Below the pieces are notes generated by a model. The model saw only the letters and a program-made list of their open reading frames with translations, did not search any database and was not told the DNA's origin. The translations under genes were made by a program, and so were the position numbers. Positions 3,182 to 40,384 of a stretch of 49,287 nt of DNA are shown piece by piece. Position 1 is the first letter of the stretch. The number at the start of each line of letters is the position of its first letter. Source of the stretch: a virus. The DNA lies in the IMG/VR virus record IMGVR_UViG_3300036886_000138, positions 1 to 49,287 of that record; one strand, written 5' to 3'.

Positions 3182-4333
3182 TTAACGCTCGGCAAATTCT
3201 TTTTCTTGTTCTAAAAAGATTTCATAATCAACCGCCGCATCCTTTGCTCCATACCGAAGCAACCGCTCCTTGCCATCTGACGGCTTCCACTTCCGGCCCT
3301 CATCTTTGTAATAGGGTTCCCGTGTATATTGCATGGTTTGGAAATGGAGAGTATGCTCAAACTCAGGCCATAACACATGATGCCGAACAAGTGTGTCGTG
3401 AAGTTCCGCTATGTTTGACTCAATACCAATGGTGCGAAGCCAATGGGCGTCAAAGCTGTAATAGTTCTGGCCGATTAACTTGCGCGTACGGAGCACTTCG
3501 TCTAGTAATCGGAGAATCCTAGCACATTTATCCGTAGGATAATCCCAAAGCGCCCAGCTTATAGCAACGTCGGGTGACGTTGCTATAGCGATGCTATAGA
3601 CCATGCGGCAACGAATCATTTCGATGTCTGCCGCTGTCGCGTTGGCAAGGTCGTTTGGTTTTGCCAGTATATCGCGCAGAAACTCCACGATAGTTTCAAA
3701 GGGAGGAGCTACGATAAGCTGGCGTTGGGGTAACGGCGCTAAAGCGTCGTAGTTGTGCCAGTAACATAGTTCCTCCCAAGCTCGTTGGTAAATGAAAACG
3801 CTTATTTGGCGCTCGGACCACTCTCGTAGGACGAACGCTGGATGCTGAACTGGTATAACATAGTGGGGCCATGATAGCCTTGGTGAAACAAGTAGGCTAC
3901 CGCGCCATCGTCCAATTGGTATACTGGTCCGTCGAGCCCTGGTCTCCGGGCAAAGGAAGCCCAGGCTCGTTGCACCAGCGCAAATGATAATCGTAGGCTT
4001 ACTCGCGCCAAGCTCCTCCAAAAGCTGCTTTTCAAACATCTCACTCGGTATACCAATCTCTGATAAACGCGCAAGCTCATTGTTTGGTGGCCTCACTTTG
4101 TATAGATTTGTAAACCAAACCTGGGTCATATCAAAGCCTGCTTCTGCCATCATCTTGTCTTGTTCCCTACCGGAGGCGCCGCAGAACGGGATGCCAGAGG
4201 CATCTTCGTCAGCCCCAGGGGCTTCGCCAATTACTACGCAGGGCGCGCTTGTGTCACCACGGGTGCCAATATACTTAACACCTTTGGTCAAACAAGCACC
4301 GCGTAATTTTGATTCTTCAATACCGCAAATCAT
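3182..4333 (-). CDS. Uracil-DNA glycosylase-like domain fused to 3'-5' exonuclease
   Basis: Residues about 30-195 form a UDG superfamily domain: GEAPGADED at 36-44, NLYKVRPPNN at 76-85 and QHPAF at 163-167. Residues about 225-383 form a DnaQ/Pol I-type proofreading exonuclease: Exo I Asp236-x-Glu238, Exo II Asp295 in QNYYSFD, Exo III Tyr361-x3-Asp365. The Cys that follows NVVK in iron-sulfur family 4 UDGs is Val80 here and the N-terminal CxxC is absent, so a cluster is unlikely and glycosylase activity is uncertain. The start ATG 4333 overlaps the upstream stop by 4 nt. The next gene is the polymerase, in the +1 frame, so the usual exonuclease-polymerase chain is divided in two. Confidence 0.85.
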   Translation of the reverse strand: MICGIEESKLRGACLTKGVKYIGTRGDTSAPCVVIGEAPGADEDASGIPFCGASGREQDKMMAEAGFDMTQVWFTNLYKVRPPNNELARLSEIGIPSEMFEKQLLEELGASKPTIIICAGATSLGFLCPETRARRTSIPIGRWRGSLLVSPRLSWPHYVIPVQHPAFVLREWSERQISVFIYQRAWEELCYWHNYDALAPLPQRQLIVAPPFETIVEFLRDILAKPNDLANATAADIEMIRCRMVYSIAIATSPDVAISWALWDYPTDKCARILRLLDEVLRTRKLIGQNYYSFDAHWLRTIGIESNIAELHDTLVRHHVLWPEFEHTLHFQTMQYTREPYYKDEGRKWKPSDGKERLLRYGAKDAAVDYEIFLEQEKEFAER

Positions 4334-11927: not shown

Positions 11928-12233
11928 TTAGGCGTTACCTTGTGGTCTTACGTTTGCCAAAATTTCATCTGACGGCCAATGTGGCTTTTCTGCCTCGGTT
12001 ATTTCGAGGATTTCCGCGATTGGAGCAATCGCTCCAAGTATTAGTTTGAAACGGTCACGCGTATAGGTCGCGGCGTTGTCAAGTAACCACTGACGCTCAT
12101 GGCCAGGTTTCATCGTCGCAACCTTTACGATACTATTATCGGAACGGCTGATTACAATAATGGTTGAACGTGAGTATTGCCCACGTTCATCAGCGCGTAG
12201 CGGGAGCATTAAAAGAGTGTCAGGCATATTCAT
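11928..12233 (-). CDS. Hypothetical protein, 101 aa
   Basis: ATG 12233 overlaps the FtsK stop by 4 nt, with GGAGG about 10 nt upstream; ATG 12227 is an alternative. The sequence suggests an alpha/beta protein (STIIVISRSDNSIVKVATM, then a KLILGAIAPIAEIL helix). No family recognised. Its coupling to the FtsK-type motor suggests a shared process. Confidence 0.6.
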   Translation of the reverse strand: MNMPDTLLMLPLRADERGQYSRSTIIVISRSDNSIVKVATMKPGHERQWLLDNAATYTRDRFKLILGAIAPIAEILEITEAEKPHWPSDEILANVRPQGNA

Positions 12234-13423
12234 AACGAAGCTGCCTCCTTTTGAATCGACACCTCAACCGCCGCTTCGATGTCTTTTATCGACGCAAACG
12301 GCGAGTGTAAACGAACAATCGTTGGGCGCAGCGGTGATGAATACAGCATATCACCACGGGCGAGCAAATGCTCCGCGCCTTCGGTGTTTATCACCGTTCG
12401 GCTGTCAATATCACTGGGCAAACGAAACGTCAAACGTGCGGGGAAGTTCGATTTTATCGAACCTTTAACAATGTCGACCGATGGTCGTTGGGTTGACGCG
12501 ATAACGTGGATGCCGCTTTTGCGGCTCTTTTGAACCATTGTCGAAAGCTTGCTCTGCGCGACTTTGCCCAGTGATGGGCCTTTCTTCTCGCCATCACCTT
12601 TACGGTCATCACAGAGTAAATCAGCAAGCTCGTCGATTAGGAAGAGGATGCGGGGCATCCTCTTTGATGGAACGCCAGCGCCTGACATTTGAATGGCGTT
12701 ATACTCCGCGATGTTCCGCACGCCTGCTGCGGCAATCTTCTTGAGCCTATCCTCCATCTCGTCTAATAACCAATCCATTCGCTCAAGCGTTTGGTAGATG
12801 TTAATTGCTGGTGGAAATAGCAGATGTGGAGCACCGATAAAGTGTGTGAACTCTACGTTCGTTGTATCTGAAAGAACGAGCTTGAGGGTGGAACTGTTTA
12901 CACAGTAAACAATTGAGGCGAGCAAGCTGCTCAAAAGCGTGGATTTGCCGCTGCCTGTGGTACCCGCAATCAACAAATGCGGTAGCAACGCTAAATCTTC
13001 GCAGAAGAACTTACCAGTATGGTCAACGCCAAACGCAAGTGGTATCTCATGTGGAGCATTGGAGGCTTGTAGCTTCCATAACTCCGTAACGATTGTTTTG
13101 AAATCAACAAACGTTCGTTCGGTGTTTGGTACAAACACAGCCACCGCGGATTCGCCTGGCAAACGCTTGATTAGAATATCTTCAACTCCTAATGCCACCG
13201 CAAGGTCCGAGGCGAGCGCCTCAAGATGAGACACTTTTGTGGAGCCTTGCGGTAGCAATCGGTAAACTGAAACGATTGGACCAACGCTAACGTTTGGTAG
13301 CATTTTAACGTTGCAACCAAGACCGAGCAGTTTCATACCGATTACACTCATGGTACGAATCTGCTCGGGCGTTAGTGTTGAATCGAGACCGTCGAGTTTA
13401 CGTTGTAGCGGTTCAGCTATCAC
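12230..13423 (-). CDS. FtsK/SpoIIIE-type DNA translocase, soluble motor only
   Basis: The 397-aa protein has the FtsK alpha domain (residues about 45-100, with VGPIVSVYRL and ESAVAVFVPN) and beta motor domain: Walker A GTTGSGKS at 154-161, Walker B ILFLIDELADL at 259-269, the TQRPSVDIV motif at 311-319 and ARGDMLY near 355. Both the membrane domain and the DNA-reading gamma winged helix of bacterial FtsK are missing, so it would be a cytosolic motor without the usual sequence steering. The start is GTG 13423, overlapping the VWA stop (GTGA), with GGAGG 7 nt upstream. It could pump DNA during replication or resolve concatemers. Family certain, function inferred. Confidence 0.9.
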   Translation of the reverse strand: MIAEPLQRKLDGLDSTLTPEQIRTMSVIGMKLLGLGCNVKMLPNVSVGPIVSVYRLLPQGSTKVSHLEALASDLAVALGVEDILIKRLPGESAVAVFVPNTERTFVDFKTIVTELWKLQASNAPHEIPLAFGVDHTGKFFCEDLALLPHLLIAGTTGSGKSTLLSSLLASIVYCVNSSTLKLVLSDTTNVEFTHFIGAPHLLFPPAINIYQTLERMDWLLDEMEDRLKKIAAAGVRNIAEYNAIQMSGAGVPSKRMPRILFLIDELADLLCDDRKGDGEKKGPSLGKVAQSKLSTMVQKSRKSGIHVIASTQRPSVDIVKGSIKSNFPARLTFRLPSDIDSRTVINTEGAEHLLARGDMLYSSPLRPTIVRLHSPFASIKDIEAAVEVSIQKEAASL

Positions 13424-14151
13424 GCTTTCACCTCCGAAGCGCCGATCAAATTCGCTGCGCCCGGCAACATTAGCCTGCTACGCAGGCCTGGCGTTAGATA
13501 CTTTAACGCCTTTCCGAAGGAAGCAACATCCGAGAAGCGGATAAATATCCCTCCGGTTATCTCCGCTATACGCTTTAGTGTATCAGCGCCTTCGCCATCG
13601 GAGATATGAACGCAGTCGATGGGTATTTTTGCTTCTGCATATGTTTGCGCAATATCGAAGCAAAGGTTGCCATCAGTCTGCCCACCATCCGAGATGAGCA
13701 CCGCTCGTGTTATTGGGTAATTACCGAGCGTTTTTTGCATTACGTCTCCGATAGGCGTGCTGCTTACGGCTTGAATATTGGCTGATTCAATAGCTAATGC
13801 GATAGCATCGGCCATCAACGGCGTTGATAAATCGTTACCGATACCGACAAGCGCAACGCTTGTTTGTGTTAAGTCACAAGCTTCGATGAAGCCTTTAACG
13901 GCATCCCGTTCATGCTGGATTTTCGGCTTGCCTGCGGCATCATTTCTCATAGAACCACTGCAATCGCACAAAATTGCTATGCGATTTGGCATTGAAACTG
14001 CCGCCTCATGCATCTGTGATGCACTGGGTGGTTCCACCGAAGCTGTGCCATCACGCTTGGCCGCGTTCATGCGCGCGCGGAAGCTATTCGCTGGTGGGCC
14101 AATCTTAATTTTGATTGGCTTCGCTAACGTATTGGGGTCTTCGTATGGCAC
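13420..14151 (-). CDS. von Willebrand factor A (VWA) domain protein
   Basis: The 243-aa protein has a full MIDAS: DCSGS at 63-67, Thr132 in SSTPIGD and Asp155 in LISDGGQTDG, in a Rossmann-like fold ending near residue 215. Residues 1-50 are basic and probably extended. VWA proteins often pair with AAA+ or motor ATPases as adaptors; here the gene is directly coupled to an FtsK-type motor. GTG 14151 with GGAGG 7 nt upstream is the start, lying inside the end of the preceding 59-aa gene. Confidence 0.85.
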   Translation of the reverse strand: MPYEDPNTLAKPIKIKIGPPANSFRARMNAAKRDGTASVEPPSASQMHEAAVSMPNRIAILCDCSGSMRNDAAGKPKIQHERDAVKGFIEACDLTQTSVALVGIGNDLSTPLMADAIALAIESANIQAVSSTPIGDVMQKTLGNYPITRAVLISDGGQTDGNLCFDIAQTYAEAKIPIDCVHISDGEGADTLKRIAEITGGIFIRFSDVASFGKALKYLTPGLRSRLMLPGAANLIGASEVKA

Positions 14152-19929: not shown

Positions 19930-20396
19930 AACAAATGGACGCAGAGTTTGCCAAGTGTTTATCAGAACTTGCAGAAAACGCAACACCCCATCCTTTTATT
20001 GGCCCAGACGGCCACCTCAATGATATTTCAATCCAAAGTGTTTTGCATCGTGATCATAGGTATGACACCTGTGGAGACTGGTATCGTGATGGTATGATAC
20101 CAGGCGAAGGCGTTTTGCGTATTCGAGTTTCGTTCTTACAAGATTGGCGCAGCGAACTCTGCGTTGCCGTTCATGAGTTAATCGAAGCTGCGCTTTGTGC
20201 GCACGACGGCGTTTCACAACAACAGGTTGATGATTTTGATATGGACCTCAGCAACAAAAATCTAAAAGAACCTGGAGCTTCGACCCAAGCTCCTTACCAT
20301 CAACAGCATAGTTTCGCCGAAGGCGTGGAGCGATTGCTTGTTGATAGGCTAGGACTCAAATGGGCCGAGTACGAATCAACCATCGCGGCTTTATAG
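19926..20396 (+). CDS. HELIEA-motif protein, possible small metal-dependent protein
   Basis: The 156-aa protein contains VAVHELIEAALCAHDGV, where His-Glu-x2-x-Glu resembles a degenerate metallopeptidase helix (HExxH lacks its second His), and an upstream YDTCGDWYRDGMIPGEG segment. Similar short proteins with a HELIEA helix are common in phages and uncharacterised. ATG 19926 overlaps the previous stop by 4 nt. Its last 37 nt overlap the start of the exported 536-aa protein in another frame. Enzymatic activity is uncertain. Confidence 0.6.
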   Translation: MKQMDAEFAKCLSELAENATPHPFIGPDGHLNDISIQSVLHRDHRYDTCGDWYRDGMIPGEGVLRIRVSFLQDWRSELCVAVHELIEAALCAHDGVSQQQVDDFDMDLSNKNLKEPGASTQAPYHQQHSFAEGVERLLVDRLGLKWAEYESTIAAL

Positions 20397-21970
20397 CCGC
20401 GTTGATCACCGCTATTTTGTTCTTCGGTACACTTGTCCTCATCACCGAGCGTTCTGCTTTCGGTCAAACTGCTACATTCTTCAATAACACCTACACGATT
20501 GCCAAGAACGATGTCGCTATCAATAACCAAGGCTCACCGATAACGTTACACCGTTTAACGTGGGTTCCTATCGGAACCGTTAGCACCTGCACCGTTGCTT
20601 TGGATTCATCGGTTGACGGTTCAACCTGGGTTGCGGGTGGTGTTATCGCTGGTCAGACTTGCACAGGTGCCTCGCAGAGTGCGGTTACCATCGCCGAAGC
20701 GAACTACGTTCGGGTAAGCCTAACGGCCTTGAGCGGTGGCGGTAGCATAGGCGTTACTTACGACGGCAATGTGAGTGCCACCGGCCTTGGCTCGTCTGTT
20801 CGTTCCTCCATGCAATATAATAGCACCTACACCGCACCTACAGTGGATTCAGGCGTTAATCTCAACGGCTCTCCGATAACAATCCACCGACTAACATGGG
20901 TTCCAATTGGCACCGTTTCAACGTGCAACGTTGCTTTGGACTCGTCAGTGGATGGAACTAATTGGTCCGCAGGTGGGGCTATCGTTGGGCAGACCTGCAC
21001 AAGCGCAGGTCAAAGCGTGGCTACCACCAAAGTAACAAACTTTGTTCGTATAAATCTTGGAACGTTTACTGGCACCGGCTCGGTTGTTGTTATCTACGAT
21101 GGTAATATTGCAAGCGCCAACGGGGCTGGTTCTCCAGTGTTCACCAACCAAACTAACGTTTACGGCGCTTTTTTGCAGGATTTCTCAGCGGGAAGCATCG
21201 ACTTACCGGATGGCGCTGGCTTCGTGGCCACGACCGACTCAAACATAGGGATCGATACAACCGGCCAAAACGTACACCTTTTTAATGCCGGCACAGATAC
21301 GCTTATTCAAAGTTCACAAGCAATTCTCGCCCTAAATGTGATCCCGAAATCTGCGAACGGGAGCAGCGGGCTCCAAACCGCGTCTTTGTGCGTCGAAAAC
21401 GGCACGACGCTCGCCTGCACCGACTCCGGCGGCGCATCGTTTGTGGGCATTACTTCAACCGGAGCGGTTAGTTTATCTCCTGCCAACCTGGCCGTCACGA
21501 TTTCCCCTACTGGCACAGGCACAGTCGCCATCAATCCCACGGCAGTAGGTGCGATCGACAACGTGAATATAGGAGCAACAACGCCGGGCACTATCAAAGG
21601 CACCAATGTCAACGCGACGCTGACTTATAAAGTGAATTCTAAACTTTTGGGGTCGGCTACAGCCCCGACTATCAGCTCAGGCTTTGGCACCAGCCCCACC
21701 ATCCCCAGTAACAACGGCACCTTTGTTTTTACGATCAACGTGGGCACCGGCGGAGCCGCCACCACCGGCGTGGTCGCTCTGCCCGCTGCAACCACCGGAT
21801 GGCATTTATCGTGCGACGACATCACGACCAAGAGCGCCACGGTTGATTCAACTGTGCAAACCGGCGTAGGCACCACCACGACTGTGCCCATCGGAAATTT
21901 TACCAGCGGCGGCATAGCCGGGGCCTGGGTCGCGAGTGACATCTTGCTCTGTACTGCGATGGCTTACTAA
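20360..21970 (+). CDS. Exported/surface protein with two tandem cysteine-pair domains
   Basis: ATG 20360 has AGGA 5 nt upstream. Residues 10-30 form a hydrophobic segment after basic residues, ending at SAFGQ, which reads as a signal peptide or anchor. Two homologous repeats of about 113 residues follow (about 38-140 and 152-255), each with HRLTWVPIGTVSTC, LDSSVDG and GQTCT; the paired Cys suggest a disulfide. The same domain occurs in the protein at 29583. Residues 255-536 are low-complexity Thr/Gly/Ala beta-rich sequence of the phage fibre type. It lies between terminase genes, far from the tail genes. Adhesin, decoration protein or host-surface modifier are possible; none is shown. Confidence 0.72.
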   Translation: MGRVRINHRGFIAALITAILFFGTLVLITERSAFGQTATFFNNTYTIAKNDVAINNQGSPITLHRLTWVPIGTVSTCTVALDSSVDGSTWVAGGVIAGQTCTGASQSAVTIAEANYVRVSLTALSGGGSIGVTYDGNVSATGLGSSVRSSMQYNSTYTAPTVDSGVNLNGSPITIHRLTWVPIGTVSTCNVALDSSVDGTNWSAGGAIVGQTCTSAGQSVATTKVTNFVRINLGTFTGTGSVVVIYDGNIASANGAGSPVFTNQTNVYGAFLQDFSAGSIDLPDGAGFVATTDSNIGIDTTGQNVHLFNAGTDTLIQSSQAILALNVIPKSANGSSGLQTASLCVENGTTLACTDSGGASFVGITSTGAVSLSPANLAVTISPTGTGTVAINPTAVGAIDNVNIGATTPGTIKGTNVNATLTYKVNSKLLGSATAPTISSGFGTSPTIPSNNGTFVFTINVGTGGAATTGVVALPAATTGWHLSCDDITTKSATVDSTVQTGVGTTTTVPIGNFTSGGIAGAWVASDILLCTAMAY

Positions 21971-29582: not shown

Positions 29583-30575
29583 ATGAAGAAGCTTTTGGCT
29601 TTGCTCATGCTTTCCCTATGCTTCGCAGCAGCACCTGCGCAAGCGCAGTTCAATGGTACGTTGACCCAATCAAATACGTTGATTGCAACTGGCGTTAGCG
29701 GCCCGATGGCAACTGGTAACGTCACGACCACGTCGTTGAACGTTGGGCTTTATCAGCTAACGTGGTGGGGGCAGGGCACCGTTTCGACCTGCACTATCGG
29801 CGTTGAGGTTGCCAGCACCTCGGGTGGTTCTTACTCCGGCGCAGGAAACACTCAGACCTGTACTAGCAACGGCTCTTACTCGTTTTTCCTTGCGCCAGCT
29901 TCTACTAACGCTTATGTGCATGTGAACCTAAGCGTGCTCAGCGGCGCTGGTGCTACCATTAACTATACCCTGAACGCTTTTCAGGGTACACCAGTGGCTG
30001 GTACTGGTGTGCTAGGAACAACCATCACTGATGGTATGGTGTTTATTCCTGCCACTCAAGCTGGTTGTTTTGTCACTCCAACTACGCTAACACAAACCCT
30101 TACCACTGTTCGGGCGGCGTTAAATAACACCGTAATGAACTCAACCACCAACGCTGCCGCTGGAAGTGAGGAATGGGATTGTGATATTACCTCAGCCCTT
30201 GCTTCTCGTACGACCGCTTTGAAAGGCGTCACAATTACCGCGATCAATGAGTTCTATGGTACTCAAGCCGCCACGGCAACCTCTCTTGCTAACGCAACCT
30301 ATGACACAGTTACCTACCCAGCGGTAGGTGGCGCAGCCTCGGGCACCGTAAGTTCTATTCTTCCCGCAACTGTGACTCCTGGTATGTCACACAGCACTCC
30401 AACCGCAACCACCTCTGGTCAGTGTGTGAATGAGGGTAACGTTCTAACTACCCCTCTGCAACTCACGGCCGCTATTGCTAGGATAACCTACTCACAGGTG
30501 TTTTCGCAAACTGCGGCATCAGCCATGACCATTCAGCTTTGTGGGTTCCAAGTGTTGTTTACTTACACCAACTAA
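29583..30575 (+). CDS. Exported protein with signal peptide and shared cysteine-pair domain
   Basis: ATG 29583 follows GGAGG by 8 nt; the frame from 29550 starts before it and is rejected. The N-terminus is a textbook Sec signal peptide: KK, a hydrophobic core (LLALLMLSLCFAAAP) and AQA before Gln. The mature part starts with a domain like that in the protein at 20360: YQLTWWGQGTVSTC, VASTSGGSY, TQTCT, VHVNLSVLSG. The remaining 200 residues are beta-rich Thr/Ala/Gly sequence with further Cys. It stands between capsid and lysis genes. Surface display, periplasmic action or virion attachment are all possible. Confidence 0.75.
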   Translation: MKKLLALLMLSLCFAAAPAQAQFNGTLTQSNTLIATGVSGPMATGNVTTTSLNVGLYQLTWWGQGTVSTCTIGVEVASTSGGSYSGAGNTQTCTSNGSYSFFLAPASTNAYVHVNLSVLSGAGATINYTLNAFQGTPVAGTGVLGTTITDGMVFIPATQAGCFVTPTTLTQTLTTVRAALNNTVMNSTTNAAAGSEEWDCDITSALASRTTALKGVTITAINEFYGTQAATATSLANATYDTVTYPAVGGAASGTVSSILPATVTPGMSHSTPTATTSGQCVNEGNVLTTPLQLTAAIARITYSQVFSQTAASAMTIQLCGFQVLFTYTN

Positions 30576-32333: not shown

Positions 32334-32498
32334 ATGCATATAAATTGCAGAATGACGGGAAGTTCTCGTAAAAGCGTCGGGGCTTCGTATGTCTGGTTTT
32401 ATAAGTATGGATTCGGAATCTGGATCTGGCGTTTGCTGTTCGGATTCGGGCATGACACAAGATCAAGGGCGCTGTATCGCGGCAATGACGCCGCTTAA
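32334..32498 (+). CDS. Small aromatic-rich protein, 54 aa
   Basis: ATG 32334 follows GGAGG by 8 nt. The product (MHINCRMTGSSRKSVGASYV, WFYKYGFGIWIWRLLFGFGH) has a short aromatic hydrophobic stretch that could lie in a membrane. It belongs to the lysis-region cluster. No family recognised. Confidence 0.5.
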   Translation: MHINCRMTGSSRKSVGASYVWFYKYGFGIWIWRLLFGFGHDTRSRALYRGNDAA

Positions 32499-32511
32499 AA
32501 AGGAGAGTAAC

Positions 32512-32916
32512 ATGAAAACCATTTTGAAAGTCTTCACCGCTGTGTTACTATTCTCGACGGGCGCACAAGCCGGGCAAGCTCAAAGGCCGAGCGAACGAGC
32601 GAAAGCCGATCTTGCTGACACGAAGGCGACGGCGCGTGTAGCCGAGGCCAAGCAACTTTTACAGGAAAGAGTGAAGGCTGAAGTGCGAATTAAAGAAATC
32701 GACGCACGCTTGGCGGCGCTCGATGCTGGTGCGGAGCCTAATTCCTGCTGGGTCATTACGGTTCCGCCTTCCTGTTGCAGTGCGGCAGCACCAATCTTTC
32801 AGTGGATGATCACCACCCCAACCTACAACTATTGTGGGTGTGGGACTCCTTATACGTCTTGCTGCACCAGCGGCACGATTACACTTGGTAGCACGCCGAT
32901 CATTATGCTTAATTGA
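32512..32916 (+). CDS. Exported cysteine-rich protein, 134 aa
   Basis: ATG 32512 follows AAAAAGGAG. A Sec signal peptide (MKTILKVFTAVLLFSTGAQA) is followed by a coiled-coil-like charged helix (about residues 27-75) and a Cys-rich end with CW, SCC, YNYCGCG and SCC groups, seven Cys in about 45 residues. Oxidised in the periplasm these would form several disulfides. The layout (export signal, helix, rigid tip) could span the periplasm, but no lipobox is present. It is not a family I recognise. Confidence 0.62.
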   Translation: MKTILKVFTAVLLFSTGAQAGQAQRPSERAKADLADTKATARVAEAKQLLQERVKAEVRIKEIDARLAALDAGAEPNSCWVITVPPSCCSAAAPIFQWMITTPTYNYCGCGTPYTSCCTSGTITLGSTPIIMLN

Positions 32917-34988: not shown

Positions 34989-35690
34989 ATGGCTTTTACA
35001 AACCAGTGGAATTCAGCGCAACCGTTAGATTCGCAACAGGCGAATCAGCTTGGGTTAGACCTCCGGTCTCTTAAAACTGATATTCAAGAGCGCATGGCGC
35101 AGTTTGCGTCTGGTACTTTGGGGAACATCCCTGTGCCGGAGGGTGTGTTTGGCAACGGCAATAACGGAGTTTTGTACTTTGCAACCGATCAGAAGAAGTT
35201 CTACCAATGGAGCGGCGCAGCCTGGGTTGAGGCGGCTTGTTGGCAGACATTTACAGACTTAACGGTTGCTCCGATTGTAAACCCTGGGGTTGAGACAACG
35301 GTTAATACGATAACGATTCCAGCGGCTTTTATGGTTGCAGGCTACTCCGTAGAAGTATTTGCTTTGATTGCCGCGGCTGGTGTTACCGCAAACGATAATA
35401 TCAATCTTTATGTAAACGGTGTGAAGGTGAGTAACCAAACGTTGGTTGGTAATGCTTTGCCGTTTTACACTTTTGAAGGTCATGGACTTGTTTTAACCAA
35501 TATTTTGATGAGCTTCGTTTCAACTGCGAATGTTGGATTTAATTTCGTTGGCGGCTCCGCAACCCCGTTCGCGCAGCCGGGTCAAATCGCCATCAATGTC
35601 GCTAATCAAATTATTGTGAAAACAACCATAGGAGCTAACGCTAATTGCACATATACGCCGGGTGGTTTGTACGTTAAGGTTCATCGTTAA
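34989..35690 (+). CDS. Tail or fibre structural protein, 233 aa
   Basis: The N-terminal 45 residues are helical (LDSQQANQLGLDLRSLKTDI), followed by GVLYFATDQKKFYQWSGAAW, a motif common in phage tail-fibre proteins, and a beta-rich C-terminal domain. The stop shares a base with the next start. Probably a virion component; no specific family is assigned. Confidence 0.68.
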   Translation: MAFTNQWNSAQPLDSQQANQLGLDLRSLKTDIQERMAQFASGTLGNIPVPEGVFGNGNNGVLYFATDQKKFYQWSGAAWVEAACWQTFTDLTVAPIVNPGVETTVNTITIPAAFMVAGYSVEVFALIAAAGVTANDNINLYVNGVKVSNQTLVGNALPFYTFEGHGLVLTNILMSFVSTANVGFNFVGGSATPFAQPGQIAINVANQIIVKTTIGANANCTYTPGGLYVKVHR

Positions 35691-37261
35691 TGCCACAAGC
35701 AACCACAGATCGCATTGAAAAACAAGAGCTTCCAGAACTCTCGTTTCATGGGCCGTTTGGTGGTATCCAAAGCGAGCTTTCTGCGGATGTGATTGAGAAT
35801 CTTGGCTTCGCTGATTGTGTGAATATGATTCTCCGTAAGGGCCTAGCGCAGGTTAGACCCGGTTATACAGCGCTGGCTTCGCCGGATGGCGCTAACCCAA
35901 TTCTTGGAATCAACGATTTCTTTGATACTCTTGGAGTACGTCACCAGGTTGGGATAACCAAGAGTAGTTTGTTCCCATGGGATGGGAGCAACTGGACGCA
36001 GCTTATCGGAGCGTTAACCGGTGGGGCTGGTATGTTGTTTAGTAGTACGGTTGTCAACGGCAAATTTTTGTTTTCCCAAGGCACTGACGCGGTTCAGATG
36101 TGGGATGGAATGGCTAATAACTTCGGGCCAGTTAGCCCAAACGCGGTTCCAGCCTTTCACATGATGGAACTTGTTCAGTCGTTGTTGGTTGCTAATACTG
36201 TTGAGAATGGTATTCCATACCCTCAACGAGTACGGTGGACTGGTCCTGGCGACCCAACGGATTGGACTAGTTTTGCCGCTGGTAAGACTGATATTTTAAG
36301 TGATCTTGGGCCGATCACTGGTTGTGGTAAGATTTATCAACAAGGTTATCTTGCGCATTTTGGTGGGCTAACACAAGTTGTGCCAACGGGTATTGGCACA
36401 GCCCCATTTAATTTTGTGCCTTTCGGCTCGCGTGGTAAAGGTAATATCTTTCCATGGAGCTGGGCTAACTACGGCGAAGAAGGCTCGGCCTATATTGGCT
36501 TTGAGGATGTGTTCTTCTTTAATGGTACTGACTCCGAACCGATTGGTTCACGAACTATTGATGGCAGCCGTCAAGTTGGTGCTCGTACAAGCATCATGGC
36601 TGAATTAGCAAACTCCAAACCATCTCAAATCTCCGGCTTTATTTCAAGCGATTGTAACGGTAATGATTACAAGGCCTATTGGATTGTTATACCTCAAGGC
36701 TCGACTTGGGTTTATAACTTTAAAGAGGCTAACTGGAGCCGGTTTGTTTTCGATAAAACGCCGTCGGTGGTTGGACGATTTTATAACCCGCGAGCGATTC
36801 GGATTGCAGATTTGAAGGGGCAAATCTCTCAACAACAATGGACTCCAGTAACGCAGGCATCTACGAAAGTGTACGATGATTTACTTATCGGCTTTGGTGA
36901 TGGCACGCCTGGGGTGGTAGACTTCACAAATTATTCAGAATCAAATTGGTTCATCACAAGCGGTCAGCTTTGCATGGGTGATCGCCGTCATAATAAAGAT
37001 GTTACCCGTTTTCGTTTGGTTTACAAAGACATTGCTGCGTCGATTCTTTTTACGATTTCTATTACCAATGAACAAGGCCGAACCGAGACAAAGCAGTTCG
37101 CACTTGGCGGTAACACCGGGCTTGTGCTTGAGAAGGTTATCCCGTTCCATATCTCCGGGCTTTTTCTAACCTATTCAATAAGTGGCAACGCCGGAACGGT
37201 TGCAAGCTTTGTAGAGTTCGCGCCGATTTACGTAACCGGCGGTGAGGTCAAGACAAACTAA
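35690..37261 (+). CDS. Tail/DNA stabilisation protein, P22 gp10-like beta-propeller
   Basis: The 523-aa protein begins FHGPFGGIQSELSADVIE, then DCVNMILRKGLAQVRPGYTA, the typical entry of phage proteins related to P22 gp10 or T7 gp12, followed by repeated strands around WDGSNWTQ, MWDGMANN and FFNGTDSEP as in a propeller. It would close the portal and form the tail hub. TAATG coupling on both sides places it in the tail gene set. Confidence 0.7.
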   Translation: MPQATTDRIEKQELPELSFHGPFGGIQSELSADVIENLGFADCVNMILRKGLAQVRPGYTALASPDGANPILGINDFFDTLGVRHQVGITKSSLFPWDGSNWTQLIGALTGGAGMLFSSTVVNGKFLFSQGTDAVQMWDGMANNFGPVSPNAVPAFHMMELVQSLLVANTVENGIPYPQRVRWTGPGDPTDWTSFAAGKTDILSDLGPITGCGKIYQQGYLAHFGGLTQVVPTGIGTAPFNFVPFGSRGKGNIFPWSWANYGEEGSAYIGFEDVFFFNGTDSEPIGSRTIDGSRQVGARTSIMAELANSKPSQISGFISSDCNGNDYKAYWIVIPQGSTWVYNFKEANWSRFVFDKTPSVVGRFYNPRAIRIADLKGQISQQQWTPVTQASTKVYDDLLIGFGDGTPGVVDFTNYSESNWFITSGQLCMGDRRHNKDVTRFRLVYKDIAASILFTISITNEQGRTETKQFALGGNTGLVLEKVIPFHISGLFLTYSISGNAGTVASFVEFAPIYVTGGEVKTN

Positions 37262-37648: not shown

Positions 37649-37921
37649 ATGGCCAATGATATATCAGCACGACAATGGAAGCTTGACACACCCGCTGCGA
37701 CGGTTATCGCCAACTGGAATATCAAAGTCAAACAGTTTGAGTTTTTCGATTTCAACGGGAACGCCGATCTTGTTAAGATAACCGATCAAAACGGAAAGAT
37801 CGTTTGGGATGGGCATGGTTCCGCGGATGGCGCGCCGGTAAGGTCGGGGACTGTTGGTTGGGTTAATGGGTTGATTATGCCAGTATTGACGTCTGGCAAA
37901 TTGATGGTTTACACGGAGTAG
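37649..37921 (+). CDS. Small tail-region beta protein, 90 aa
   Basis: ATG 37649 follows AAGGAG by 8-9 nt. The sequence (FEFFDFNGNADLVKITDQNG, KIVWDGHGSADGAPVRSG) reads as a small all-beta protein. Similar short proteins accompany tail genes in podoviruses. No named family. Confidence 0.62.
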   Translation: MANDISARQWKLDTPAATVIANWNIKVKQFEFFDFNGNADLVKITDQNGKIVWDGHGSADGAPVRSGTVGWVNGLIMPVLTSGKLMVYTE

Positions 37922-37927
37922 CTTGCT

Positions 37928-40384
37928 ATGCGAAAACTAACGTTTTGTTTCATTGCCGTTTTGTTGCTGTTGCTATTCGCTGGACGAGCAAATGCCCAGG
38001 GCGTTCCGTACCATGATATTGCTTTCTCGTCTGTGACGGGTAAACCAATTGGTGGCGTAAACGTTTATGTTTGCACTGCATCGGCGACTGGCGCTCCATG
38101 TTCGCCACAGGTAAACATTTATACCAATCAAGCATTAAGTCCGGCGAACCTGATTACACAACCTTTAAACGCTGATAACCTTGGGAATTTTTCTTTTTGG
38201 GCTGCGCCAGGTATTTACAAAGTTCAGGTTATTGGAACAGGTATTACAACCTATAGCTATTCTATAATTGACCCTGTTGATCTTACCAACTCATATAGTG
38301 GAACAGTTAATTTTACCGGCATTGTAAATATAACAACGCTTAATGTTAGCGGTGTACTTACCCTAGGCACCCTTGTATTACCGAATCTTGGCTCGATTCA
38401 TTTTGCCGCTGGCTATAGCGGGGGCGATTGCGGGGCGAAGATAAATTCCGCTGATGCTGATTTGGGTGTGGTTGCCGGAGAAATTTGGGTTAATCAAGCG
38501 TGCGGCTTGGTTTGGACTACTCGCGTCTCTGTTTCAGCCAATCATACAGTTAGAATGATTCAGGCTGGTAATTACGTATTACCAACCGGAACGCCCTCAA
38601 GTCCGGCAATTACGCTGGCCGGAAACAATTCAAAGCTGATCTGTGGTGGATGGGACACGATCTTCAACTATACGACTCCGGCTTCTGACAGCGCACCGAT
38701 GGTTTATGCAAACGCGACGGCCGGAAACGTTGTGAAGGATTGCTCTTTTATAGGAACGGCCGGGCCGACCATCAACGTGCCGCTCGGCAATTCCGTGGAT
38801 ACGGCGACTAACGGGCAAGAGGGTATTCTGTTCAATAATGTAACAAATTGCCAGATTATCCATAACCAATCGACCAATCACGGCTATGCGGGGATTGTTC
38901 TCGTCAGGTCCACGCGATGCGAGGTGAACGATAACACGGCAAATTCCAACACTTCGGGCGGCGGAATTTTAGGGTGGTCTACCGATTTAGGGCCAATGCT
39001 TGAGAATACATTTGATAAAAATATCATTAGCAATAATGGATGTCTTGGTGCGGCTTGCTTCCAGGCAAGAGGCATTCTGATGGCTCGTCTTGGAACCACT
39101 AATGGGCCGGTTGGAAATAAAATAACCGGAAATACGGCGAACAGCAACTCCCTCTATGGAATAGAAGTATATCAATATGGACGTAAAAATATCATCACTG
39201 GAAATACGTTCAACGGGAACTGTGTAGGTGGTATACACGATTGGACGAATACATTCGATATTATATCATTTAATATAGTGACTGGAACCGGGGGTATAAC
39301 CTGTCCCAATAGTGCGGGTGGGGTCATCAATGGTGGTTATGGAATACGAGTAGGTTCAGGTTACTATAGCCAAGTAGTAAATAACTTAGTTGCTGGAAAT
39401 AATACAAGCAATCTCGCTGGTTATCCGGGAATAGGCGTTGATGGAGAAGGGGCACTTAACTCATTCGGGATGTTGGTTAGTGATAACACTGTCCGTGATC
39501 ACCAAGCATCCAACGATATCCTTGTCTCCTCCAGTGCGTTAACAACGCTTGGTGCAGCGACTTATTATTATGTAGCAGTTGCTTATGGGACAACTGGAAC
39601 GGTTCTCGCACAAAGCTCTGAGGTTTCCGCCGTGGCCGGTGGTGGCGGCTCCGTGCTTCTAAGTTGGTCAGAGTACCAAGGAGTCGCAGTTTATCGAGTT
39701 TATCGGGGTACTGCCCCGGCTGGAGAGAATGTTTATTATATCCTTCCCGGACCTGCCTACGTTGATACAGGGAACGTTTCTACCCGTAATGCAGGGACCC
39801 CCCCAGGTTCAGGGAATTCTATTGCTAATCCATCAGCAACTGTTGTAGCTGGAGGGTTTGATACTCAAGGCATTGTGGTTCACGACAACGCTTTGTACGG
39901 AACTACAAGCGTAACTCCATTATCTGTTGGTTCTAATGCGTGGTCTTATGCCAACCCGACTTCTTTGACGAATCCTGCGGCCTCTGGAAACCTTCGGCTT
40001 AACTCCGGTGACTCAATTGTGTGGAGAAATAATGCCGGAACTGGAGACATACCTTTAGCTAAAAGTGCCGGAGACTTGCCGACATTTCAAGGGAATATTA
40101 TTCCTGTTATTGCGCTTGGTGCTCAATCGAATTTGCGCTCGGCAACCGCTGCCCTAACGTTTGGCTCAATCCCGGCAAATAGTTGTTCAGAACAGCCTAT
40201 TGCTGTGACTGGAGTACCAACGACAAGCGCCGTATTCGTTAGTCCACAAGTAAGTATAGGGGCAAACTTTAGTTGGTCAGCTTATGTAAGCGCATCAGGA
40301 ACTGTACAAGCAAGGGTATGTAATGTGACCACCGGGGCATTGACTCCGAGTGTTCAAACATGGACGGCAACCGAATTACAGTGA
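37928..40384 (+). CDS. Tailspike-like beta-helix protein with a signal peptide
   Basis: Residues 1-23 are a Sec-type signal peptide: RK, hydrophobic FCFIAVLLLLLFAG, then ANA before Gln. A head-binding-like domain follows (GKPIGGVNVYVCTASATGAP, GNFSFWAAPGIYKVQVIGTG). Residues about 230-540 are a right-handed parallel beta helix of the NosD/pectate-lyase type (NNVTNCQIIHNQSTNHGYAG, KITGNTANSNSLYGIEV). A fibronectin-like part with YYYVAVAYGT and a C-terminal domain with TFGSIPANSCSEQPI end the protein. Such proteins bind or cut host polysaccharide. A signal peptide on a tailspike is unexpected, because virions assemble in the cytoplasm. Confidence 0.78.
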   Translation: MRKLTFCFIAVLLLLLFAGRANAQGVPYHDIAFSSVTGKPIGGVNVYVCTASATGAPCSPQVNIYTNQALSPANLITQPLNADNLGNFSFWAAPGIYKVQVIGTGITTYSYSIIDPVDLTNSYSGTVNFTGIVNITTLNVSGVLTLGTLVLPNLGSIHFAAGYSGGDCGAKINSADADLGVVAGEIWVNQACGLVWTTRVSVSANHTVRMIQAGNYVLPTGTPSSPAITLAGNNSKLICGGWDTIFNYTTPASDSAPMVYANATAGNVVKDCSFIGTAGPTINVPLGNSVDTATNGQEGILFNNVTNCQIIHNQSTNHGYAGIVLVRSTRCEVNDNTANSNTSGGGILGWSTDLGPMLENTFDKNIISNNGCLGAACFQARGILMARLGTTNGPVGNKITGNTANSNSLYGIEVYQYGRKNIITGNTFNGNCVGGIHDWTNTFDIISFNIVTGTGGITCPNSAGGVINGGYGIRVGSGYYSQVVNNLVAGNNTSNLAGYPGIGVDGEGALNSFGMLVSDNTVRDHQASNDILVSSSALTTLGAATYYYVAVAYGTTGTVLAQSSEVSAVAGGGGSVLLSWSEYQGVAVYRVYRGTAPAGENVYYILPGPAYVDTGNVSTRNAGTPPGSGNSIANPSATVVAGGFDTQGIVVHDNALYGTTSVTPLSVGSNAWSYANPTSLTNPAASGNLRLNSGDSIVWRNNAGTGDIPLAKSAGDLPTFQGNIIPVIALGAQSNLRSATAALTFGSIPANSCSEQPIAVTGVPTTSAVFVSPQVSIGANFSWSAYVSASGTVQARVCNVTTGALTPSVQTWTATELQ

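Follow-up and report, generated by a model that had tools for sequence, protein, structure and literature searches.

A P22-type beta-helix tailspike behind a predicted Sec signal peptide, and possible spike export in tailed phages

Tailed-phage virions are held to be completed in the cytoplasm, and the closest described tailspikes, P22 gp9 and Sf6 gp14, are cytoplasmic proteins without a signal, each combining a head-binding fold with a right-handed beta-helix and encoded in a virion gene cluster. In P22 it is through the head-binding domain that the tailspike attaches to the particle, and P22 tailspikes can join finished, spike-free heads in vitro. Sec-exported virion proteins are otherwise represented by the filamentous phage coat proteins pIII and pVIII, which belong to virions extruded across the envelope. 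Tailed phages are known to use Sec for SAR and Sec-exported endolysins (for example PMC7143992), these being lysis enzymes and not receptor-binding virion proteins. In the open-access literature, outside which most subscription papers lie, our survey found no description of a signal peptide on a spike or fibre of a tailed phage. GenBank contains five Tunturiibacter phages (PMC11924767), and the main text of that paper makes no mention of signal peptides.

Here we describe a predicted tailspike in a stretch of viral DNA of 49,287 nucleotides (IMG/VR record IMGVR_UViG_3300036886_000138, positions 1 to 49,287; this whole stretch is called the window). It shares with P22 gp9 and Sf6 gp14 the head-binding fold (a Z of about 8 across 85-91 residues), the right-handed beta-helix and the location in a virion gene cluster, but unlike those cytoplasmic, signal-free proteins it bears a signal and a cysteine pair, its mature chain containing 14 cysteines. 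The export that we propose recalls pIII and pVIII, although the window belongs to a tailed phage with terminase, portal and capsid. Its parts are as follows.

37928 to 40384, plus strand: signal-bearing beta-helix tailspike, 818 residues (795 when mature, if cleaved after residue 23)
37915 to 37918, plus strand: Shine-Dalgarno-like GGAG, 9 nt 5' of the ATG at 37928
37928 to 37996, plus strand: predicted Sec signal peptide, residues 1-23, MRKLTFCFIAVLLLLLFAGRANA, predicted cut between ANA and QG (rule-based test and family comparison)
37997 to 38281, plus strand: N-domain, residues 24-118, with a P22-type head-binding or transthyretin-like (CarboxypepD_reg-like) fold (AlphaFold, Foldseek, Pfam)
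38072 to 38101, plus strand: cysteine pair C49...C58 (CTASATGAPC), which signal-bearing relatives retain and signal-less ones lack
38705 to 39250, plus strand: right-handed parallel beta-helix, residues 260-441 (Pfam Beta_helix, NosD)
39971 to 40381, plus strand: C-terminal modules, residues 682-746 and 732-818 (blastp), common to the signal-bearing fibre proteins of L026, L027, L025, L019, L023 and L032

The gene is a single open frame from the ATG at 37928 to a stop ending at 40384, and a prior sequence-only reading, which had proposed a beta-helix tailspike with a Sec signal here, had strand, frame and coordinates right; the open reading frame, signal rule, Pfam matches, fold and gene position all bear that proposal out. 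The protein begins MRKLTFCFIAVLLLLLFAGRANA followed by QGVPYHD, with a basic n-region (R2/K3), an uncharged hydrophobic core and an A-N-A site, then Q, after residue 23. Sec/SPase I signals were scored with a rule-based predictor in two forms of the rule (not SignalP), under which the tailspike shows the positive n-region, hydrophobic core and small residues at -3 and -1 expected of such a signal; the signal peptide prediction that the sequence-only reading had named as a check thus returns, by rule, a cleavage site at ANA-Q after residue 23. The rule flagged 3 of 54 window ORFs in one form and 4 of 56 in the other, the tailspike core having the highest 8-residue mean Kyte-Doolittle value among those flagged (3.69). 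A chance hydrophobic N-terminus was rejected, as shuffled N-termini pass the same kind of rule at only 1.7% and the signal is conserved in the family. We likewise rejected a misplaced start codon: the Shine-Dalgarno element precedes 37928, and the frame opens just two codons upstream, after a stop at 37919-37921.

Turning to what follows the signal, an AlphaFold model of residues 24-122, built on 37 relatives, reached a pLDDT of 90.4, and its best solved matches by Foldseek against the PDB were the head-binding domains of the P22, Sf6 and Pan3 tailspikes (probability 1.00, E ~0.01). Comparison by VIA with the Pan3, Pam1 and P22 head-binding domains gave Z 8.0-8.9 over 85-91 residues, with a range of 7.4-8.9 across the P22, Sf6, Pam1 and Pan3 tailspike anchors. 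Among predicted viral structures, most of the named matches were tail fibres, tailspikes or pectate-lyase spikes (best E 4e-5). Transthyretin-like domains outside phages, such as pilins and carboxypeptidase D, also match (Z about 7-8), and because this fold is common outside phages, the modelled fold alone is not sufficient proof of virion binding. By profile, the N-domain has homologues in tailspikes that carry no signal, those of Enterobacter phage Arya (E 4e-5), Sulfitobacter phage phiGT1 (E 3e-4) and Escherichia phage ECO1230-10, which differ in beginning with this domain at the start codon and in having neither signal nor cysteine pair. Pfam Head_binding (PF09008) has zero matches in the window record, so the protein is not filed under that family, and kinship is drawn from the fold and from other tailspike N-domains. 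Further along the chain, residues 260-441 match Pfam Beta_helix at 40.3 bits (cut-off 25.9) and NosD at 37.7 bits (cut-off 23.6); a full-length AlphaFold model made without an alignment (pLDDT 35) was discarded and adds nothing to the beta-helix call.

The surrounding genes are those of a tailed-phage structural cassette: the tailspike is preceded by genes for terminase (phrog_38), portal and major head protein and by that of a phrog_3287 virion protein.

35690 to 37261, plus strand: virion structural protein (phrog_3287), a conserved neighbour, 42-47% identical in L100, L110, L117 and L057
37261 to 37623, plus strand: 120-residue tail-type protein; in L057, L110 and L117 its homologue is joined in frame ahead of the signal segment
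37649 to 37921, plus strand: 90-residue conserved gene directly upstream of the tailspike, also in L100
40408 to 41148, plus strand: tail protein (phrog_10775, E 7e-5), the next gene downstream, 57% identical in L110

We identify the product of 37928-40384 as a predicted tailspike from its fold and genomic position, since a head-binding fold lies behind the signal and the gene stands between the phrog_3287 and phrog_10775 genes. Head-binding fold, right-handed beta-helix and structural-cassette position are all those of a P22-type tailspike, but such spikes lack an export signal and this one has one; we regard it as P22-type in build and do not file it as an ordinary member. It would be a receptor-binding protein, possibly a trimer present on the virion that binds or cleaves glycans, with a possible polysaccharide-cleaving role.

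On the opposite strand, genes of replication type (PolA, uracil-DNA glycosylase, a nuclease, an FtsK-like gene) lie in the first third of the window. Among them, 3182-4333 (minus strand) joins a uracil-DNA glycosylase domain to a 3'-5' exonuclease-like domain beside PolA, and an FtsK/SpoIIIE-like ATPase gene at 12230-14151 (minus strand) lies next to a von Willebrand factor A domain gene. That the window might be a non-viral contig was rejected on finding terminase, portal and capsid.

Two further window genes, also within the structural region, probably carry signals.

29583 to 30575, plus strand: probable second signal-bearing gene, MKKLLALLMLSLCFAAAPAQA cut before QF, shortly after the major head protein gene, with GGAGG at its start
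20360 to 21970, plus strand: probable third signal-bearing gene, 536 residues, ...ERSAFG cut before QT, just before terminase

The first of these was listed as a 341-residue ORF, and its start is better set at 29583, where GGAGG precedes the ATG; its product may be an exported head-decoration or fibre protein. By eye, both genes share a cysteine-pair repeat (VSTC...QTCT), of which 20360-21970 holds two copies, and the latter gave no PHROG or Pfam match. Ten cysteines (5.7 per 100) lie in a 175-residue ORF at 32389-32916 (plus strand), where an internal ATG may start a signal, MKTILKVFTAVLLFSTGAQAGQA ahead of QR.

Relatives of the N-domain were collected with DNA patterns. One built on the cysteine motif returned some 20 viral relatives, each carrying a signal that ends A/G-Q, and a second, D[GA]xGN[FY]xFYA, which ignores both cysteines and signal, returned 84 stretches, with signals scored on the 45 residues preceding the N-domain. 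The relatives form two separate groups, about 62 distinct IMG/VR sequences with a hydrophobic signal segment and 22-23 sequences without, the latter including proteobacterial tailspikes. In the signal-bearing group the segment precedes a diverged spike and is N-terminal by predicted starts in all but three. Position -3, which was not used in choosing the site, is small or aliphatic at 63 of 63 sites (A in 41), and a start with at least 4 nt of Shine-Dalgarno precedes the signal in 34 of 63 relatives vs 9 of 63 control positions. Across 16 close relatives, dN/dS is 0.54 over the signal codons, indicating weak purifying selection, and 0.08 over the N-domain; the predicted signal is loose in sequence and kept in kind, as expected of a signal. 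Genomic context agrees in part of this set, as L100 (portal 50% and capsid 62% identical to those of the window) carries a signal-bearing spike in the equivalent slot behind the same small gene, and in other relatives signal-bearing and signal-less genes both occupy structural modules made of the same gene clusters. The clearest exception is found in three loci syntenic with the window (L057:9439-12045, L110:1891-5022, L117:5918-8524), where a 120-residue upstream domain runs in frame into the signal-like segment, which as read lies about 130 residues inside the ORF and not at its N-terminus; this fusion could mean internal initiation or an internal signal. On the reverse strand of L026, two adjacent ORFs are tandem signal-bearing genes with the same N-domain. 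Searches for full tailspike homologues among phage records and for the N-domain of a relative in plasmids found none, and a pattern scan of genome contigs gave zero confirmed relatives. Taken over the relatives, the predicted signal is a widespread family trait and not the oddity of a single gene.

The cysteine pair tracks the signal. It is present in 61 of 62 signal-bearing N-domains and in 0 of 23 signal-less ones, for which the Fisher value of 7e-20 is not to be taken at face value because the N-domain tree needs just two signal changes, leaving one or two independent contrasts and an underpowered test. The switch can be seen in two related sequences, VCTQPATTSAPCSPLATLY with the signal (L068) and VCTQPATTSTIPPSPLATIY without it (L088). 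A second, unrelated fibre N-domain that adjoins the spike in five relatives also has both a signal and a cysteine pair (near YKFVLC...NDG..CAP).

L023:4893-6260, L025:4909-6504, L032:7231-8730, L036:3628-5268 and L019:5101-6364: second fibre genes, with an unrelated N-domain, signal and cysteine pair

Signal-less homologues of this second domain, in phage DSL-LC05 and ctn9Y15, have neither feature, which puts the pair in 5 of 5 signal-bearing vs 0 of 2 signal-less cases. With three unrelated phages pooled (Tunturi 2, Tunturi 4 and that of the window), structural proteins that carry a signal are richer in cysteine than those that do not (10 vs 57 genes, p 1.6e-5; p 0.06 for the window alone). 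Paired cysteines point to an oxidising compartment, and as indirect support they suggest that the tailspike is a substrate cleaved and exported in vivo.

Cultured phages present the same arrangement. In Tunturi 2 the products with a signal are gp12, gp13 (tail fiber), gp14 (pectin lyase), gp16 and gp17 (virion structural, by eye beta-helix-like); all large spike and fibre genes of the module are signal-bearing, and across its first 42 kb the rule flags zero further ORFs. Genes and signals alike recur in Tunturi 1, where gp14 is annotated as a tail spike, and the siphovirus Tunturi 4 has signals on gp113, gp114 and, after upstream extension of the frame, gp111. The deposited start of that last gene, a tail fiber gene (L045:31177-34272), probably lies some 357 nt downstream of the true one; the extended frame opens with a signal peptide. 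Like the window spike, the products of Tunturi 1/2 gp12-gp17 and Tunturi 4 gp111/113/114 (PMC11924767) combine spike or fibre genes with Sec-type signals and many cysteines, but mostly with other N-domains. The signal is no rule for all phages of Acidobacteriota, since none of the tail genes examined in Tunturi 3 or in the first 50 kb of Tunturi 5 has one. Portal, capsid and tape measure genes adjoin a signal-bearing gene in the provirus L087, for which a non-viral origin was rejected on the presence of those three genes; its record number, 637000001, we take to be that of Koribacter versatilis Ellin345, an acidobacterium. Because signal-bearing genes occur in Tunturiibacter phages and in this provirus, the host of the window is likely an acidobacterium. 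Several unrelated tail proteins of Acidobacteriota phages appear to share the export arrangement, their cleavage and virion presence being predicted.

As the sequence-only reading correctly noted, cytoplasmic assembly and a signal peptide are at odds in a tailspike. We propose that the spike is exported through Sec, oxidised in the periplasm, cleaved by SPase I and docked on virions at or after lysis, a reading to which we give about an even chance (roughly 0.5). Translation would start at the ATG at 37928 and the signal would route the chain through the Sec channel; signal peptidase I would cleave after ANA23, leaving Q24 as the mature N-terminus; the head-binding domain would form its disulfide (probably C49-C58) and the beta-helix would fold in the periplasm. 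There the spike would be held while the cytoplasm builds heads and tail hubs, and at lysis it would meet the particle, its head-binding domain docking on the tail hub to complete it. From the strong evidence of comparison among relatives we infer the earlier steps, namely Sec export, cleavage between A23 and Q24 and periplasmic oxidation. Docking on the tail hub at lysis would be a further step, which we favour because the virion-binding domain is strongly conserved, the gene lies in the structural cassette and these genomes hold no recognisable signal-free spike; the addition of P22 spikes in vitro makes late docking physically possible.

The main alternative accepts export and denies docking. 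The protein would then be a free depolymerase or adhesin that never sits on the virion and strips or masks the surface polysaccharide of the dying cell or its neighbours, with easier release, spread or exclusion of rivals as benefits and the anchor domain as a relic of tailspike origin. The signal and the cysteines speak for export whether or not the protein docks, and Tunturi_2 gp72 (L038:9848-10141) offers an exported product with half of the N-domain outside the spike module. That gene encodes a small predicted lipoprotein (LIGC lipobox), possibly a surface decoy or exclusion factor. We nevertheless consider a free protein less likely than a docked one, given the strength of selection on the virion-binding domain, the location of the genes within the structural cassette and the consequence that, with signal-bearing spikes and fibres excluded, the Tunturi_2 particle would be left without a recognisable receptor-binding protein. 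When the sequence-only reading suggested an exported free enzyme, its export half is upheld by the signal and cysteine pair, and the free half is disfavoured by a retained virion-binding domain that favours joining.

It is improbable that the segment is an uncleaved anchor in the virion or a membrane, for instance inserted in the tail or in the host membrane at entry, and not a working Sec signal. The fused loci L057, L110 and L117, with the segment internal to a longer ORF, would suit such an anchor, but unrelated proteins share its basic n-region, its hydrophobic core and its small residues at -3 and -1, a cysteine pair follows the segment in two unrelated domains, and signal-less homologues have no such helix, their N-domain beginning at the start codon (Arya, phiGT1). 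A leaderless virion form made from an internal downstream start, beside or replacing the exported form, was another suggestion of the sequence-only reading and seems to us quite improbable. Many relatives do have in-frame GTG codons near the cleavage site, but in the window a GTG at +12, inside the N-domain and lacking a Shine-Dalgarno, is the first in-frame start codon past the signal, start positions are not conserved in the family, and 12 of 63 relatives lack a start codon from -6 to +21. Passive capture of signal and domain together from a secreted host protein, such as the N-terminal module of a TonB-dependent receptor, behind whose signals CarboxypepD_reg also sits, would suit the Pfam CarboxypepD_reg matches of 29 of 37 family members, but such a capture, which the sequence-only reading also put forward, is very improbable as a functionless remnant and is contradicted by a signal kept, paired with cysteines, across about 62 diverged relatives, widely conserved in unrelated phages and recurring on unrelated fibre domains.

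What is new here is the combination of a P22-type tailspike with an export signal, and two-compartment assembly would be a novel case. Extending the exported-spike reading beyond the window, we tentatively propose, as something possible more than probable, that a group of tailed phages, many of them probably on Acidobacteriota, build two-compartment virions: capsid and tail hub would be made in the cytoplasm, and receptor-binding spikes and fibres, perhaps with head decorations, would leave through Sec, gain disulfides in the periplasm and join the particle only at lysis. If true, the final assembly step would take place outside the cytoplasm and spikes would be able to carry disulfides. The export signal would then be a simple sequence mark of host-recognition proteins in poorly known soil phages and would help account for many unannotated long ORFs. 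Judged from their sequences, soil phages, including cultured phages of Acidobacteria, may export their receptor-binding proteins and not build the entire particle within the cytoplasm, as the present comparison suggests.
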